NCBI GenBank assembly: GCA_016178305.1
Contig: JACOTM010000030.1
Location: 62,001-126,000 of the forward strand
DNA: 64,000 bases
Direction: 5' to 3'
Origin: Flavobacteriia bacterium
GTDB taxonomy: Bacteria > Bacteroidota > Bacteroidia > Flavobacteriales_D > Crocinitomicaceae
The notes below the pieces were generated by a model. The model ran no database searches, had not been told where the DNA came from, and was given only the letters and a program-made list of their open reading frames with translations. A program made the translations under genes and the position numbers. Each line of letters opens with the position of its first letter. The stretch's first letter is position 1. Below, piece after piece: positions 13,776-22,777 of the stretch.

Positions 13776-15227
13776 TCAATAATTACGGTAATCATTCCAT
13801 AAACAGCTACGAATCCCTACCGTTAAATAATAAGTCGGTTCATGAATATAGGTGTTAATTCTCAATTGATTTTCCATGAAAATTTGCAAGTTCGTTGCAC
13901 TGTCTATTCTGTATGCCGTTGATAAAATTATTCGCGAACCATTATTTCCATTTCCTTGACCAATCAAGTTGTTATATTCATGTGGACGATTATTATACGA
14001 TTGATAAATATCTCCACCATAACTTAATCCATCTTTTTTATCATACCCTTTTAAAAAATAACTGGCAAAAAATTTAATAATCCAATTCTCTCTTTGCCAT
14101 TTTGCTTCCACTAAAAGTTCTGCAAAACTTCCTCCATAAGGATGAGCTAACGCATAACCTTGATTTCCATAATTTTCTGAATAATGTGCATGTGAATAAG
14201 TGTAAGGTCTAGCAAAATTAAACTCAGATCTGTAAAATATTTGACCCATTTTCGTTTTAACTCTACCTTTAATACCTAATTGTGCTCCGTATTTATTTCC
14301 CCACCATTTAGACCTGGCTTTTAATTCTCCCAATAAAAATTCATCCAAAACAATTTGTCCGTAGAGTGTATGTTTTTTATATTTTGCAGAAAAATGAAAG
14401 CCCATTATAATATTATCGGAAGAACCCATTGAATATTCTTGCGGTCTATAAAAAATAATTGGATTCAGGTATTCAGCATCAAAACCTCTGTTTAAAGTTG
14501 TATCTTTTGGCTGAAAAACAACCGTCTCAAAAAATCCCAAATTTAGCCATTTTGTAGCATTGATGCTTAAATAATGAGTCCCTGCATATTTAGATTTCCA
14601 ATTTTTTTTAACTTCTTCTCTGTAAAATTGATACAACATTAAGTATTCAATCCTCCAAAACTTTGCTCTAATTTGAGCAAAAGGAGATGCAACTGAATAA
14701 TCGCTTAATAACAATGACCGGTTGCCTTCTCCGATAAAATTATTATCAATTCCTGCTTGGAAATTAAAAATATGATTCGGTGAAAAAGAAATGCGTCCTC
14801 GAATATCAGTATATTGAATACTACTGTTTTTTGCTCTTGAAAACACATAAGCTTTTGGTTCTAAAAAAGAATTATCAACTTTCCCTAAACCTTCAATTGC
14901 AGCCACACGGAAAAACCATTTATTTGCAAACTGGCTTTCTATAGATGCTCCTAAACCTGTTCTATATTGTAGATTAGAAGGTGTAAATCCAATATCCAAC
15001 AAGCCATTTATTGTGAAATAATTTGAACTTATTCCTTTTGAAATAAAACCTATTTTAGATTTAGTGGGTATTTGTGTGTTTGAAATTGCAGGTAATATTT
15101 CTGAATGAAATGATAAATCAGTTGTTTGAATTGTATCGCAAGGTAATTCTTCATACAAAGGTTTTACTTGTACTTGAGCAACAGACAAATGAGAAATAAA
15201 AAAAACAACTAATAAAAATACTTTCAT
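13776..15227 (-). CDS. Outer-membrane beta-barrel protein, Wzi/RemB-like
   Basis: 483 residues from ATG 15227, whose A is the last base of the upstream stop (TGATG), so translation is coupled. An earlier TTG at 15230 is possible but less likely. The signal peptide is VFLLVVFFISHLSVAQ. The remainder shows alternating aromatic strands of an outer-membrane barrel and the motif FIGEGNRSLLLSDYS. The upstream fusion protein carries nearly the same motif, so the two are paralogues. Similar motifs occur in Wzi-like capsule-surface proteins and in RemB-type proteins linked to gliding in Flavobacterium; this assignment is from memory of the families. The substrate is unknown. Confidence 0.7.
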   Translation of the reverse strand: MKVFLLVVFFISHLSVAQVQVKPLYEELPCDTIQTTDLSFHSEILPAISNTQIPTKSKIGFISKGISSNYFTINGLLDIGFTPSNLQYRTGLGASIESQFANKWFFRVAAIEGLGKVDNSFLEPKAYVFSRAKNSSIQYTDIRGRISFSPNHIFNFQAGIDNNFIGEGNRSLLLSDYSVASPFAQIRAKFWRIEYLMLYQFYREEVKKNWKSKYAGTHYLSINATKWLNLGFFETVVFQPKDTTLNRGFDAEYLNPIIFYRPQEYSMGSSDNIIMGFHFSAKYKKHTLYGQIVLDEFLLGELKARSKWWGNKYGAQLGIKGRVKTKMGQIFYRSEFNFARPYTYSHAHYSENYGNQGYALAHPYGGSFAELLVEAKWQRENWIIKFFASYFLKGYDKKDGLSYGGDIYQSYNNRPHEYNNLIGQGNGNNGSRIILSTAYRIDSATNLQIFMENQLRINTYIHEPTYYLTVGIRSCLWNDYRNY

Positions 15228-17557
15228 CAAAAATCGTTATAATGATTAATAATTCCGGTTCTTAACCCAAAATTCAAAAAATTTGTTTTGAAATTATCAC
15301 TATTAAAATCAACTCGTTGAACCCATGTTGCAAAAACGGTAAAATTTATTTTTCGATTTATTCGATAACCAGCTTCAATTTGATGATGATAAATTTGTTT
15401 GTTTTGAATGGGATTATTTTTTGAAACTGCTAATAAAAAATTAGCTTCATAATTTCTTAATTGATACATAATTGTTTTATAATCAATGTAAAACCTTTTA
15501 TATTCATAATTAAAACGAATAATAAATTCTTGAAATCCATTTCCTTTCGTATGTGCTAATGGCAAATTGCATTGGGAATAATTTAATCTTCTATTTACAG
15601 TAGCAACATATAATGAATTAGGAACATCATTGTATTCTAATTGTAGCATCAAGTTTTTAATTTTAAAAAAATTATACCCTCTAATTCCAAATTGAAAACC
15701 AAAATGTTTTGAATTTAAATTAGACATTGCAATTTGAGAATATACTCTATAATTTTTCAATAAAACGCCTTCTATATTTAATCCTAGTATAGAATTCATC
15801 TGATTGTAATTTGAATATAATGCTTCCGTTAAACCAGGAATAGGATTATAAAAAAAATTATTTACTTTGTGCGAAGTTACAGAATCTCCTTTACTCCATA
15901 TAATTCCTTCAAAAGCACTGATTGAAAAAAAATCAAATGGTTTAAATGTTGCATAATTAACCGAATATCCTTTAGGTTCATAATATGCTTCATCTGTTGT
16001 TTTAATTGGTCTTCTCAATAAATTAAACATTTTTTCACGCATGCAAACTATCGAAAATCGTTTACTCAAATTATAATTAATCTGAAAATATGGTCCATTA
16101 ATACTATTATCTGACAACAATAACGAACGATGGCCAGCCCCAATGAAATGGGAATTATTTCCTACTGCGATTTGAATTTTTTTAATCGGTGAATAAACAA
16201 TACTTCCTATTGCATAAGCATAATCATAACCATTTTCTTTAAACGGCTTCGTACGTGCAGCTCCTGGAATCACGGCATTTAAAGTACTGTAGCCTCCATT
16301 ATTTGGATATAGTTCACCTATCGAATTATAATATGCCCGTTCATAATCTAAAAAACGTGCTTGGTTTTCATAAAATGCAGTTGAATAAGAAAAATTTTTA
16401 AATAAATCTCCTTCTATTTGCAACCCTCTTGTATTTTGATAATATTTTGTTGGTACGGTATCAGCTCTGTTTTCACCTTTTGAAATATCCATTAAAGGAG
16501 TGATTGAAAAATTATAATTTTCGCCTTTTACTTGAATTAAATAATTTTTCAAGAGCATTTCAGTAAAATCATAATATTGAATAGAAGTATCGGCATTTAG
16601 CGTCTGTAAATCAAATTCATTTTCTGAAACAGGAAAAAAAGAGCCATTTAAAAAACTTTTACCTTTTAACGGAGAATAAATTTTATCTTTAAAATAGGAA
16701 TGAATCGGAGCAAAATTTTGTTGTGACCAACTCAATAAAAAACAAAAGCAAAATAATATACTTAATAACGGTTTTGTTTTAGCAATAAAAAATGGATTGA
16801 ATAAACTTTCTTTATTATAAATTAATGAATTCCCCGTTTCTACGTCATAAATTACTCCTCCTAAAGCTTCTAAAATTGCTTGGCCTGCAGCAATGTCCCA
16901 TTCCATTGTGGGTGTAAAACGAGGATATACATCTGCCGTTCCTGTTACCAAATCAAAAAATTTTAGGGCGCTTCCTTTTTTAAGAAATTCTATTTCAGAA
17001 TGTTTCACTTTTAATTCTTCAATAAAATCAGCAGAAGCTCCTGAATGTGGTGATCGTGATGTCGCCATAATTAATGGAGAATTATATTGGGTTTTAGCCT
17101 CAATCTTTTTCCATTTACAAACATCGTTGACATCTTCAAAAAGAGAGATATACACTCCTATTTCTTTGCTTCCAAACAATACTTTTTGTTCTACTGGCCA
17201 TGCAATTACTCCAAAAATCGCTTTCCCTTCATCAATTAAGGCAATATTTACAGCAAATTCGCCATTTCTTTGAATATATTCTTTTGTCCCATCCAATGGA
17301 TCAACACACCAATTTAATTTCCAATTTTTGCGAATTTCATAGGATTCATGAACACTTTCTTCTCCTAAAACAGGAATATTTGTTTCTTTAAGAATCTCTA
17401 AAATCAATTGAGAAGAAGCATAATCAGCCTCTGTTACTGGTGATCCGTCTGTTTTAATTTTTGAATCAAAACCTTTTTCATAATAATGCATAATCACCTC
17501 CGATGCTTTGATCGACGCTTCAATTGCTTTTTGATATGTGAAAGATAAAATATTCAA
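15227..17557 (-). CDS. cysQ: In-frame fusion: CysQ-type phosphatase plus outer-membrane barrel
   Basis: 776 residues in two unrelated parts. Residues 1-260 are a complete CysQ (3'(2'),5'-bisphosphate nucleotidase), with the metal site GEES (65-68), WCVDPLDGTKEY (84-94) and EWDIAAGQAIL (219-229). This is a cytoplasmic enzyme that removes PAP from sulfate assimilation. Residues 263-280 (PLLSILFCFCFLLSWSQQ) look like a lipid-free signal peptide. From 281 on is a beta-barrel with FIGAGHRSLLLSDNS, a paralogue of the next gene. No ATG, GTG or TTG start lies just before the signal-like stretch. The start TTG 17557 is supported by a TATCTTTG element 17 bases upstream and a stop in frame before it. 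Probably an ancestral cysQ and a barrel gene that lost their junction, or an assembly error. Confidence 0.8.
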   Translation of the reverse strand: MNILSFTYQKAIEASIKASEVIMHYYEKGFDSKIKTDGSPVTEADYASSQLILEILKETNIPVLGEESVHESYEIRKNWKLNWCVDPLDGTKEYIQRNGEFAVNIALIDEGKAIFGVIAWPVEQKVLFGSKEIGVYISLFEDVNDVCKWKKIEAKTQYNSPLIMATSRSPHSGASADFIEELKVKHSEIEFLKKGSALKFFDLVTGTADVYPRFTPTMEWDIAAGQAILEALGGVIYDVETGNSLIYNKESLFNPFFIAKTKPLLSILFCFCFLLSWSQQNFAPIHSYFKDKIYSPLKGKSFLNGSFFPVSENEFDLQTLNADTSIQYYDFTEMLLKNYLIQVKGENYNFSITPLMDISKGENRADTVPTKYYQNTRGLQIEGDLFKNFSYSTAFYENQARFLDYERAYYNSIGELYPNNGGYSTLNAVIPGAARTKPFKENGYDYAYAIGSIVYSPIKKIQIAVGNNSHFIGAGHRSLLLSDNSINGPYFQINYNLSKRFSIVCMREKMFNLLRRPIKTTDEAYYEPKGYSVNYATFKPFDFFSISAFEGIIWSKGDSVTSHKVNNFFYNPIPGLTEALYSNYNQMNSILGLNIEGVLLKNYRVYSQIAMSNLNSKHFGFQFGIRGYNFFKIKNLMLQLEYNDVPNSLYVATVNRRLNYSQCNLPLAHTKGNGFQEFIIRFNYEYKRFYIDYKTIMYQLRNYEANFLLAVSKNNPIQNKQIYHHQIEAGYRINRKINFTVFATWVQRVDFNSDNFKTNFLNFGLRTGIINHYNDF

Positions 17558-17573
17558 TAAATTTCAATTGATT

Positions 17574-17581
17574 CAAAGATA
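17574..17581 (-). promoter_or_regulatory. -7 promoter element for the cysQ fusion
   Basis: Minus strand TATCTTTG, 17 bases before the TTG start at 17557. It lies directly after the terminator of the thioredoxin operon, so the fusion gene has its own transcript. Confidence 0.6.
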
Positions 17582-21226: not shown

Positions 21227-21970
21227 ATGAAAAAAATATTACTTAGTTTAATTTTGGGTACATCTCTTTATTCAAATGCTCAGAATATTACCATTTTTGT
21301 AGGCTCAGGAACTACTGATATGTCTGGTCAAACAATATCAATTAATGTTGACAATACAAATCAAATTGCTACTTCAATGACATTCAACAATAATTCAGGT
21401 GCAACTCAAAGTTGGAGAATGACTGTCAAAGATTTAACAAATACAGCTGGATGGGAAGATGGTTTTTGCTGGGGTAGTACTTCAAATCCGCTTATCGGAA
21501 ATTGTTATGGAAATTCTCAAGTAAATTCAAATCCATGGACAACTCCAAACACAAATACAGGACACCCTTCAGTTGACAATGGTAGTTCAGGTACATTATT
21601 ATCGGATATTACTCCAGGTGGGGCAGGTCAAGGTCATTATAGATATTTAATATCTTTGGATGGTACTACATTTATTGATTCTGTTGATATTTTAGTTACA
21701 AGTACTGCTGGAATCAAAGACATCAAAAATAATCCATCTTTTTCAATGTCCCCTAATCCAGCTAATGATATCATTTCTTTAGATGTAAATGACTTAAATG
21801 TTACTGGGATTAAAATGTTAGACTTATTAGGAAATATAGTTTATACTGAAAACAATGTTTCTGATAACAAAAAAGTAGATGTTTCTAATTTTAAAAATGG
21901 TGTTTACTTTGTTGTAATCGAAATCAATGGAAAAGCTACTTTAAATAGAAAATTAGTGGTAAAACATTAA
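21227..21970 (+). CDS. T9SS type A sorting-domain protein, twin 1
   Basis: 247 residues. Signal peptide (ending LYSNAQ). A ~145-residue beta-rich domain of unknown role follows, with Gly/Ser/Asn repeats and the pattern TAGWEDGFCWGSTSNPLIG; two Cys (about residues 80 and 91) may pair. The last ~75 residues are a type A sorting domain, with MSPNPANDIISLD, then MLDLLGNIVYTE, then FKNGVYFV and RKLVVKH. Such proteins are exported by T9SS and can be attached to the surface. The neighbour at 22031 is a close paralogue, and a terminator lies between them. Confidence 0.9.
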   Translation: MKKILLSLILGTSLYSNAQNITIFVGSGTTDMSGQTISINVDNTNQIATSMTFNNNSGATQSWRMTVKDLTNTAGWEDGFCWGSTSNPLIGNCYGNSQVNSNPWTTPNTNTGHPSVDNGSSGTLLSDITPGGAGQGHYRYLISLDGTTFIDSVDILVTSTAGIKDIKNNPSFSMSPNPANDIISLDVNDLNVTGIKMLDLLGNIVYTENNVSDNKKVDVSNFKNGVYFVVIEINGKATLNRKLVVKH

Positions 21971-22030: not shown

Positions 22031-22777
22031 ATGAAAAAATTAATCTTTTCTCTAATTTGGAGTGCATCATTTTATTCAAACGCTCAAAATATTACAATTA
22101 TTGTTGGGTCAAATAATGCAACGAATATGTCTGGTCAAACATACATTACTAATGTAAACAATGTCGATCAAGTTAATACCTATATCACTATTAACAACAA
22201 TACTGGCGCGACTCAAAGTTGGTATATGACAGTAAAAAATCTAACAAATACCTTTGGATGGGAAGATGCTTTTACTTGGGGAAGTACTTCAAATCCATTA
22301 CTTGGAGGCTGTTATTCACCAATAATTATGAATACAACTCTTTGGACGACTCCAAATAATTCTTCTGGACACCCAGCAATTGAAAATGGAAACTCAGGGA
22401 CATTAGTCTCTGAAATAACACCTAATGGTACGGGACAAGGTAGATATAGATATCTTATTTCATTAGACGGGGCAACATTTATTGATTCTATTGATGTGCT
22501 AGTTAACTATTCTGCTGGTTTAAATGATTTCATAAATAATCCATCTTTTTCAATGTCTCCAAATCCAGCTAATGATATCGTTTCTTTAGATGCAAATGAT
22601 TTAAATGTTACTGGAATTAAAATGTTAGATTTATTAGGGAACATCGTTTATACTGAAAACAATGTTTCTGATAACAAAAAAATAGATGTTTCTAATTTTA
22701 AAAATGGTGTTTACTTTGTTATCATCGAAATCAATGGAAAAGCTAGCTTAAATAGAAAATTAGTCATAAAACATTAA
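22031..22777 (+). CDS. T9SS type A sorting-domain protein, twin 2
   Basis: 248 residues, a tandem paralogue of the protein at 21227. The N-terminal domain has diverged: it keeps FGWEDAFTWGSTSNPLLGG, but one of the two Cys of twin 1 is changed to Thr. The C-terminal ~75 residues are almost the same in protein and DNA (22535-22775 against 21728-21968). This points to recent duplication or gene conversion of the sorting domain. Signal peptide ending FYSNAQ. Function of the N-terminal domain unknown. Confidence 0.9.
   Translation: MKKLIFSLIWSASFYSNAQNITIIVGSNNATNMSGQTYITNVNNVDQVNTYITINNNTGATQSWYMTVKNLTNTFGWEDAFTWGSTSNPLLGGCYSPIIMNTTLWTTPNNSSGHPAIENGNSGTLVSEITPNGTGQGRYRYLISLDGATFIDSIDVLVNYSAGLNDFINNPSFSMSPNPANDIVSLDANDLNVTGIKMLDLLGNIVYTENNVSDNKKIDVSNFKNGVYFVIIEINGKASLNRKLVIKH

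Follow-up and report, generated by a model that had tools for sequence, protein, structure and literature searches.

How can one open reading frame supply both an enzyme of the cytoplasm and a barrel of the outer membrane? This question is raised by a gene in a 64,000-nucleotide stretch of DNA from a Flavobacteriia bacterium (family Crocinitomicaceae; assembly GCA_016178305.1, contig JACOTM010000030.1, positions 62,001 to 126,000), the whole of which we hereafter call the window. Here, a 776-codon open frame at 15227–17557 on the minus strand starts with TTG and runs from a CysQ-like phosphatase through a signal peptide into a predicted outer-membrane barrel, with neither a stop nor a start between these three coding parts. 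We interpret this frame as a natural polyprotein gene, very probably translated into one chain that would sit at the Sec translocon with its N-terminus in and its C-terminus out and be cut by signal peptidase I into a membrane-tethered CysQ and a barrel. A preliminary description of the window had already proposed an in-frame CysQ–barrel fusion with an internal signal-like stretch, and we confirm it; the same fusion is present in five further species, which takes the observation far beyond chance. Of the extents given there (CysQ at residues 1–260, signal at 263–280), both parts hold and the boundaries shift, with CysQ reaching to about residue 262 and the likely cut falling after residue 278. 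The parts of the gene are as follows.

15227–17557, minus strand: the whole fused gene, 776 codons plus TGA, with a TTG start; the frame is free of stops in six of 12 congeners.
16772–17557, minus strand: CysQ-like phosphatase, residues 1–262, with motifs GEE, DPLDGT and WD.
16769–16783, minus strand: residues 259–263 (AKTKP), the native CysQ C-terminal tail as judged against the tails of unfused congeners, now the putative basic n-region of the signal peptide.
16733–16768, minus strand: hydrophobic core of the internal signal peptide, residues 264–275, with a best 12-residue hydropathy of 2.4–3.0 and no gaps in the six fused proteins.
16724–16732, minus strand: c-region, residues 276–278 (S-W-S), with the putative signal peptidase I cut before Q279; the −1 and +1 residues are kept.
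15230–16723, minus strand: predicted mature outer-membrane barrel, residues 279–776 with Phe last, from a low-confidence model.

Conservation and origin of the fusion

Searching whole genomes of the genus, we found the fusion in six of 12, the window genome (G000) included. The frame is uninterrupted in G003, G008, G009, G010 and G011, which show 73, 74, 74, 75 and 65% identity, respectively, to the window gene. A sequencing or assembly error that deleted a stop and a start, one of the options of the preliminary description, would need to have happened in frame in each of six genomes, and we give it next to no credence: the six assemblies share the same frame and the same junction length while carrying many synonymous differences, and four of them are distinct records. 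Such an error would be helped by the draft state of the genomes, as four are metagenome-assembled genome (MAG) records, two of them apparently from one project and bearing unrelated organism names that we take for naming errors, and the assembly that holds the window is split into 124 contigs.

The six other congeners (G001, G002, G004, G005, G006 and G007) have two genes, with the barrel ATG lying −4 to +1 nucleotides from the end of the cysQ stop. Their CysQ tails, such as NPHFVARTKPLVL-stop in G007 and NPHFVAKTKAMLLQKT-stop in G005, carry AKTKA, ARTKP or ALTKP in three congeners, a lysine or arginine pattern like that of the fused tails, and AITQS (two) or VLTNP (one) in the others. Among 18 unfused relatives that have both genes together on one locus, 17 have an in-frame barrel ATG at −14 to +23 nucleotides (G108 has two qualifying ATGs, of which the one at +3 was counted), and G017 has TTG starts only; G018, with a weaker CysQ match and another frame after it, was excluded from this set. 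By hand count, the fused junction is 10 codons shorter than that of G007 between the TKP proline and the Gln pair. As read from these aligned junctions, the stop, the barrel Met and the barrel n-region have been lost, and the CysQ tail now appears to fill the n-region role. A real fusion made by deletion at the junction, which the preliminary description had listed among its options, is thus supported by six fused congeners and by the ancestral stop/ATG pair in the other six. It had also named, as a case that would tell against the fusion, relatives in which a normal start codon fills the gap; such a start is indeed found, but only in the unfused sister group, where it represents the ancestral state, and the fusion stands.

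Phylogenetic trees of 18 rows place the fused genomes on one side of a branch for rpoB (support 98) and for the barrel (support 99), so that the fused genes form one clade in two of the three trees, and a single origin of the fusion is the simplest reading. Beyond these six, no fusion was seen among the matches listed for 240 genomes of the family, nor among those listed for 355 genomes of the order, the latter scan taking genomes with a completeness of at least 80 and so excluding G003, G008 and G011. Loci with unusually long frames in G062, G045, G013 and G035 show no cysQ–barrel joining in their lists of open reading frames.

The junction and its internal signal peptide

Residues 264–278 are hydrophobic and end in S-W-S, after which the chain continues with Q-Q-N; the chain would probably be cut behind residue 278, which puts the cut between window positions 16724 and 16723. 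Scanning the 44 window open reading frames of at least 150 amino acids with a custom signal-peptide pattern (basic n-region, hydrophobic core and small-x-small-Q), we obtained seven matches, six of them N-terminal and one internal, and the internal match is the CysQ–barrel junction. This signal peptide lies about 260 residues into its frame, away from the N-terminus and without a closely preceding shared start.

All six fused proteins possess the basic n-region, the hydrophobic core, a small residue at −1 and Gln at +1, with the −1 residue being Ser in five and Ala in one, and with QQ at +1 and +2 throughout. Gln at +1 is given as a rule for Bacteroidetes signal peptidase I substrates, holding for about 71% over the phylum, in two studies (PMC10653852; PMC5837995). 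The alignment of residues 252–281 is gapless across the six, each row having one gap, at alignment column 419 or 654 (0-based), outside this stretch. Their tails follow the pattern AKT[KN][AP]LL or FF and continue into the hydrophobic core; A259, K260 and T261 are invariant, each written with two to three codons, and residue 262 is Lys in five of the six. The hydrophobic stretch (h-region) varies in sequence among these proteins, and its length and hydropathy (2.4–3.0) are kept.

The enzyme and the barrel

The first part of the chain matches Pfam family PF00459 over residues 8–247 at 155.4 bits (cut-off 27), and its best solved relative is the CysQ structure 3b8b (residues 9–262, 190.5 bits). 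G65 E66 E67, D86–T91 and W220 D221 are invariant in five of five aligned fused proteins, and 3b8b shares DPLDGT and EWD, having SEE in place of GEE. We take GEE, DPLDGT and WD to be the metal-binding motifs of the CysQ/inositol-monophosphatase superfamily. APS (adenosine 5′-phosphosulfate) kinase, PF01583, has no match in the window genome, which is 99.99% complete, and has matches in nine of the 12 congeners. The window genome does hold two PAPS_reduct-family matches, and given the missing APS kinase match its 3′-phosphoadenosine 5′-phosphate may come from other sources. In G008, a stop-containing CysQ-like match of 50 residues (G008:C81:6002-6829) lies near an APS kinase match that scores above those of the other congeners; this short match may stem from contaminating DNA in the MAG or represent a second, broken cysQ.

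For the barrel, a model built from 10 sequences is of low confidence (predicted local distance difference test score, pLDDT, 39.9; predicted template modelling score 0.44), with 15 strands over barrel residues 174–490 and no useful structure before them; a full-length AlphaFold model of the fused chain (pLDDT 28.8) is too poor for use. When this low-confidence barrel model was compared with VIA-align, Wzi (2ynk) came out best (Z 16.4, root-mean-square deviation 5.0, 277 aligned), AlgE was tied with it (15.1–16.0), and the best 50 rows were nearly all outer-membrane barrels. Because even the fiftieth row still reaches Z 13.9, the modelling supports an outer-membrane barrel for residues 279–776, and the Wzi or AlgE kind is only hinted at. 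Foldseek, run on the same low-confidence model, ranks Wzi fifth (template modelling scores 0.39/0.43). The Wzi family PF14052 matches one of 20 relatives (E 2.5e-4) and gives no match to the window barrel even at E 10, and a PDB sequence search with the barrel profile returned nothing up to E 10. The cysQ–barrel neighbourhood may descend from a polysaccharide cluster, and we would guess at a role of the barrel in surface polysaccharide.

Internal initiation or cleavage

That such a chain must either be cut or be restarted internally was argued in the preliminary description; the requirement is right, and the evidence favours cutting over restart. The same description saw no ATG, GTG or TTG just before the signal-like stretch, and the window gene indeed has none in frame between residues 219 and 274. 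If ribosomes nevertheless started the barrel inside the fused frame, at a non-canonical or distant codon, two separate proteins would result, and translational coupling may be ancestral, as stop and start abut or overlap in the unfused relatives. Two codons near the junction offer themselves, namely the ATT at residue 258 that precedes AKTK in the window and a TTG at residue 265 in four of the six fused genes, but neither is a shared start. Residue 258 is written ATT, ATT, GTT, GTC, GTT and ATA across the six, and we rejected ATT or another non-canonical start there because the codon is not kept; the ATT start proposed earlier loses its footing in that four of the five other fused genes have GTT, GTC, GTT or ATA. 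A TTG start at residues 264–265 was likewise rejected, being absent from the window (TTA) and from G011 (TTT), and a start at this point would deprive the signal peptide of its basic n-region. M164 and M218 are the only in-frame canonical starts that all six genes share in the stretch from residue 150 to residue 300; neither is at the signal peptide, and M218 lies inside the TMEWD motif.

An internal promoter was rejected as well, since from codon 106 to codon 591 none of the six fused genes has a TAnnTTTG box (the consensus of the Bacteroidetes −7 promoter box). Synonymous divergence among the four closest species, evaluated in 25-codon segments, is highest for segments starting at codons 230–245 (ranks 147–151 of 151), such that synonymous sites upstream of the junction are without constraint. 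Segments starting at codons 250–275 rank 110, 28, 79, 47, 20 and 40 of 151, which is middling to lowish, and the three of these six at or after the junction that rank 20, 28 and 40 from the low side lean towards an internal start. A conserved RNA element at the junction was rejected on these values, since divergence shows no dip upstream and at the junction itself is no lower than middling to lowish; there is no strong RNA or initiation signal at this point, and a weak one just after it is possible. Over so few junction codons a missing stop alone is weak evidence, and the missing start is the stronger. With no shared start at the junction, no strong initiation signal and no internal promoter box, we therefore favour cutting by signal peptidase I and regard internal initiation as improbable.

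Selection on the two halves

To summarize selection on the two halves, we give the ratio of nonsynonymous to synonymous substitution rates (dN/dS) for the 15 pairs of the six fused genes, which is 0.058–0.265 for CysQ (residues 1–258) and 0.032–0.170 for the barrel (residues 282–776), these values being rough in distant pairs, where the proportion of synonymous differences is 0.5–0.7. Among the four closest species the corresponding ranges are 0.058–0.100 and 0.032–0.053. The CysQ and barrel halves are both under purifying selection.

This bears on whether the chain might stay whole with only one half functional, either because CysQ is held to a barrel precursor that never leaves the inner membrane or because the barrel is decaying. 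Such a chain is given room by the fact that cleavage is deduced from sequence features. It is opposed by the purifying selection on both halves and by the conserved cut-site residues, and also by the search for a second CysQ, which came up empty in five of the fused genomes and in the sixth, G008, gave no more than the 50-residue match; as two of the six genomes are at least 92% complete and four are 76–83% complete, this negative is firm for G000 and G010 only. We hold an uncut chain to be very unlikely.

A proposed polyprotein and its processing

Under the polyprotein reading, a short in-frame deletion in the ancestor of the clade would have removed the cysQ stop and, from the barrel gene next to it, both the start codon and the basic n-region. 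A single ribosome would then make CysQ, signal peptide and barrel as one chain, with CysQ folding in the cytoplasm and the internal signal peptide, using the AKTKPLL tail as its positive n-region, entering SecYEG with its N-terminal side cytoplasmic while the remainder is translocated. Signal peptidase I would cleave after residue 278, the N-terminal Gln of the barrel would be cyclised by Bacteroidetes machinery, and the barrel would proceed to the outer membrane, whereas CysQ would be kept in the inner membrane via its short hydrophobic tail, unless this tail is clipped later. Two products are predicted, their masses taken from residue counts: a CysQ of about 31 kDa that carries a hydrophobic tail of 15 residues, and a 498-residue barrel of about 57 kDa.

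More broadly, we think it likely that this lineage has made the cytosolic enzyme and the barrel only as one polyprotein since before its species diverged to 65% identity in this protein. The C-terminal tail of the enzyme would have been recruited as n-region, signal peptidase I would act as the maturation protease for both proteins, and each exported barrel would leave behind one copy of the enzyme, fixed to the inner membrane.

Several points weigh against this reading. Cleavage, the location of the barrel and the activity of CysQ are all predictions. The 23 junction codons have dN/dS values from 0 to 0.89 (0.89 in one distant pair; not computable in four of the 15 pairs), which, as expected, fits a loose h-region but fits relaxed selection too. 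In the CysQ tree, several inner branches of which are weak, the fused genes are not grouped and three changes are needed. The best NCBIfam model, the CysQ equivalog TIGR01331, is matched over positions 3–249 of its 250 at 210.5 bits, below its cut-off of 228.8, and we therefore use the label ‘CysQ-like’. Lastly, a non-canonical start that differs from species to species is compatible with the sequence.

Promoter, downstream paralogue and neighbouring genes

Two further features flank the fused gene.

17574–17581, minus strand: TATCTTTG, probably a −7 promoter box of the Bacteroidetes type, ahead of the TTG start.
13776–15227, minus strand: a second barrel gene, a distant paralogue by open reading frame and profile comparison, whose ATG shares one base with the TGA of the fused gene.

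The box upstream of the cysQ TTG reads TATCTTTG in five of the six fused genes and TACCTTTG in the sixth. This start codon (window 17555–17557, minus strand) is TTG in all 12 congeners, fused or not, and the six fused genes have neither ATG nor GTG in the interval from the upstream stop to this TTG. The downstream gene is related to the barrel at an hhalign probability of 99.8 and 21% identity, and at 15227–15229 (minus strand), where its ATG meets the TGA of the fused gene, a stop–start overlap persists at the other junction of the gene run.

In a genome of another family (G045, locus L069, 783–5227), cysQ is followed by two genes and then a barrel gene in one run, the two intervening genes presumably being a GDP-mannose dehydratase and a GDP-fucose synthase. 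Elsewhere in the window, tandem secreted proteins at 21227–21970 and 22031–22777 (plus strand) have nearly identical C-terminal tails (NPSFSMSPNPAND...) and resemble type IX secretion cargo. Similar genes adjoin the fusion upstream in loci L032–L035.

Implications and comparison with known systems

Signal peptides are usually sought at the N-terminus, and a soluble enzyme ahead of one is easily taken for an error. The conserved case described here suggests that one small deletion can make a working polyprotein from neighbouring genes for different compartments, and that the Bacteroidetes route through Sec and signal peptidase I tolerates a folded domain of about 260 residues before the signal. 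One chain cut in two would be an unusual way of making two proteins for two compartments. How Sec deals with the internal signal of an outer-membrane barrel could be tested on this natural example, and internal sites with the +1 Gln offer a way to find more such genes.

In the literature searched (titles and abstract beginnings among the matches listed), neither a bacterial enzyme–barrel polyprotein nor this gene was found described. Chimeras of ToxR, a membrane segment and beta-lactamase carry a cytoplasmic domain, the segment and a periplasmic enzyme on a single chain, and they are reported to insert in the right orientation, their C-terminal end facing the periplasm (PMC4786438). They share with the fused gene the succession of cytoplasmic domain, hydrophobic stretch and periplasmic part; a domain placed before the hydrophobic stretch is therefore no obstacle in principle. 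They are laboratory constructs meant to stay whole, whereas the fused gene has a cut site after the segment and what follows it would end up in the outer membrane.

Viral polyproteins cut by signal peptidase, such as bunyavirus Gn/Gc, are also on record (PMC5113920). They share with the fused gene an internal signal peptide that is the cut point. Their processing is viral and takes place in the eukaryotic secretory pathway.

A bacterial precedent is the cytochrome b/c1 precursor FbcH (Bradyrhizobium type), in which one gene yields two proteins by means of an internal signal sequence cut by signal peptidase; there the first protein is itself a polytopic membrane protein, and the two products end up in the same complex. 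The fused gene, by contrast, would yield a soluble enzyme first and then an outer-membrane barrel that has no known link to this enzyme. The name ‘cytochrome b/c1 subunit’ occurs in PMC12456017.

The separate cysQ and barrel genes of the same bacterial family encode the same two proteins in the same order, with stop and ATG overlapping or close. Unlike them, the fused gene has neither the stop, the start nor the n-region between its halves, and the CysQ tail would serve as n-region in their place.

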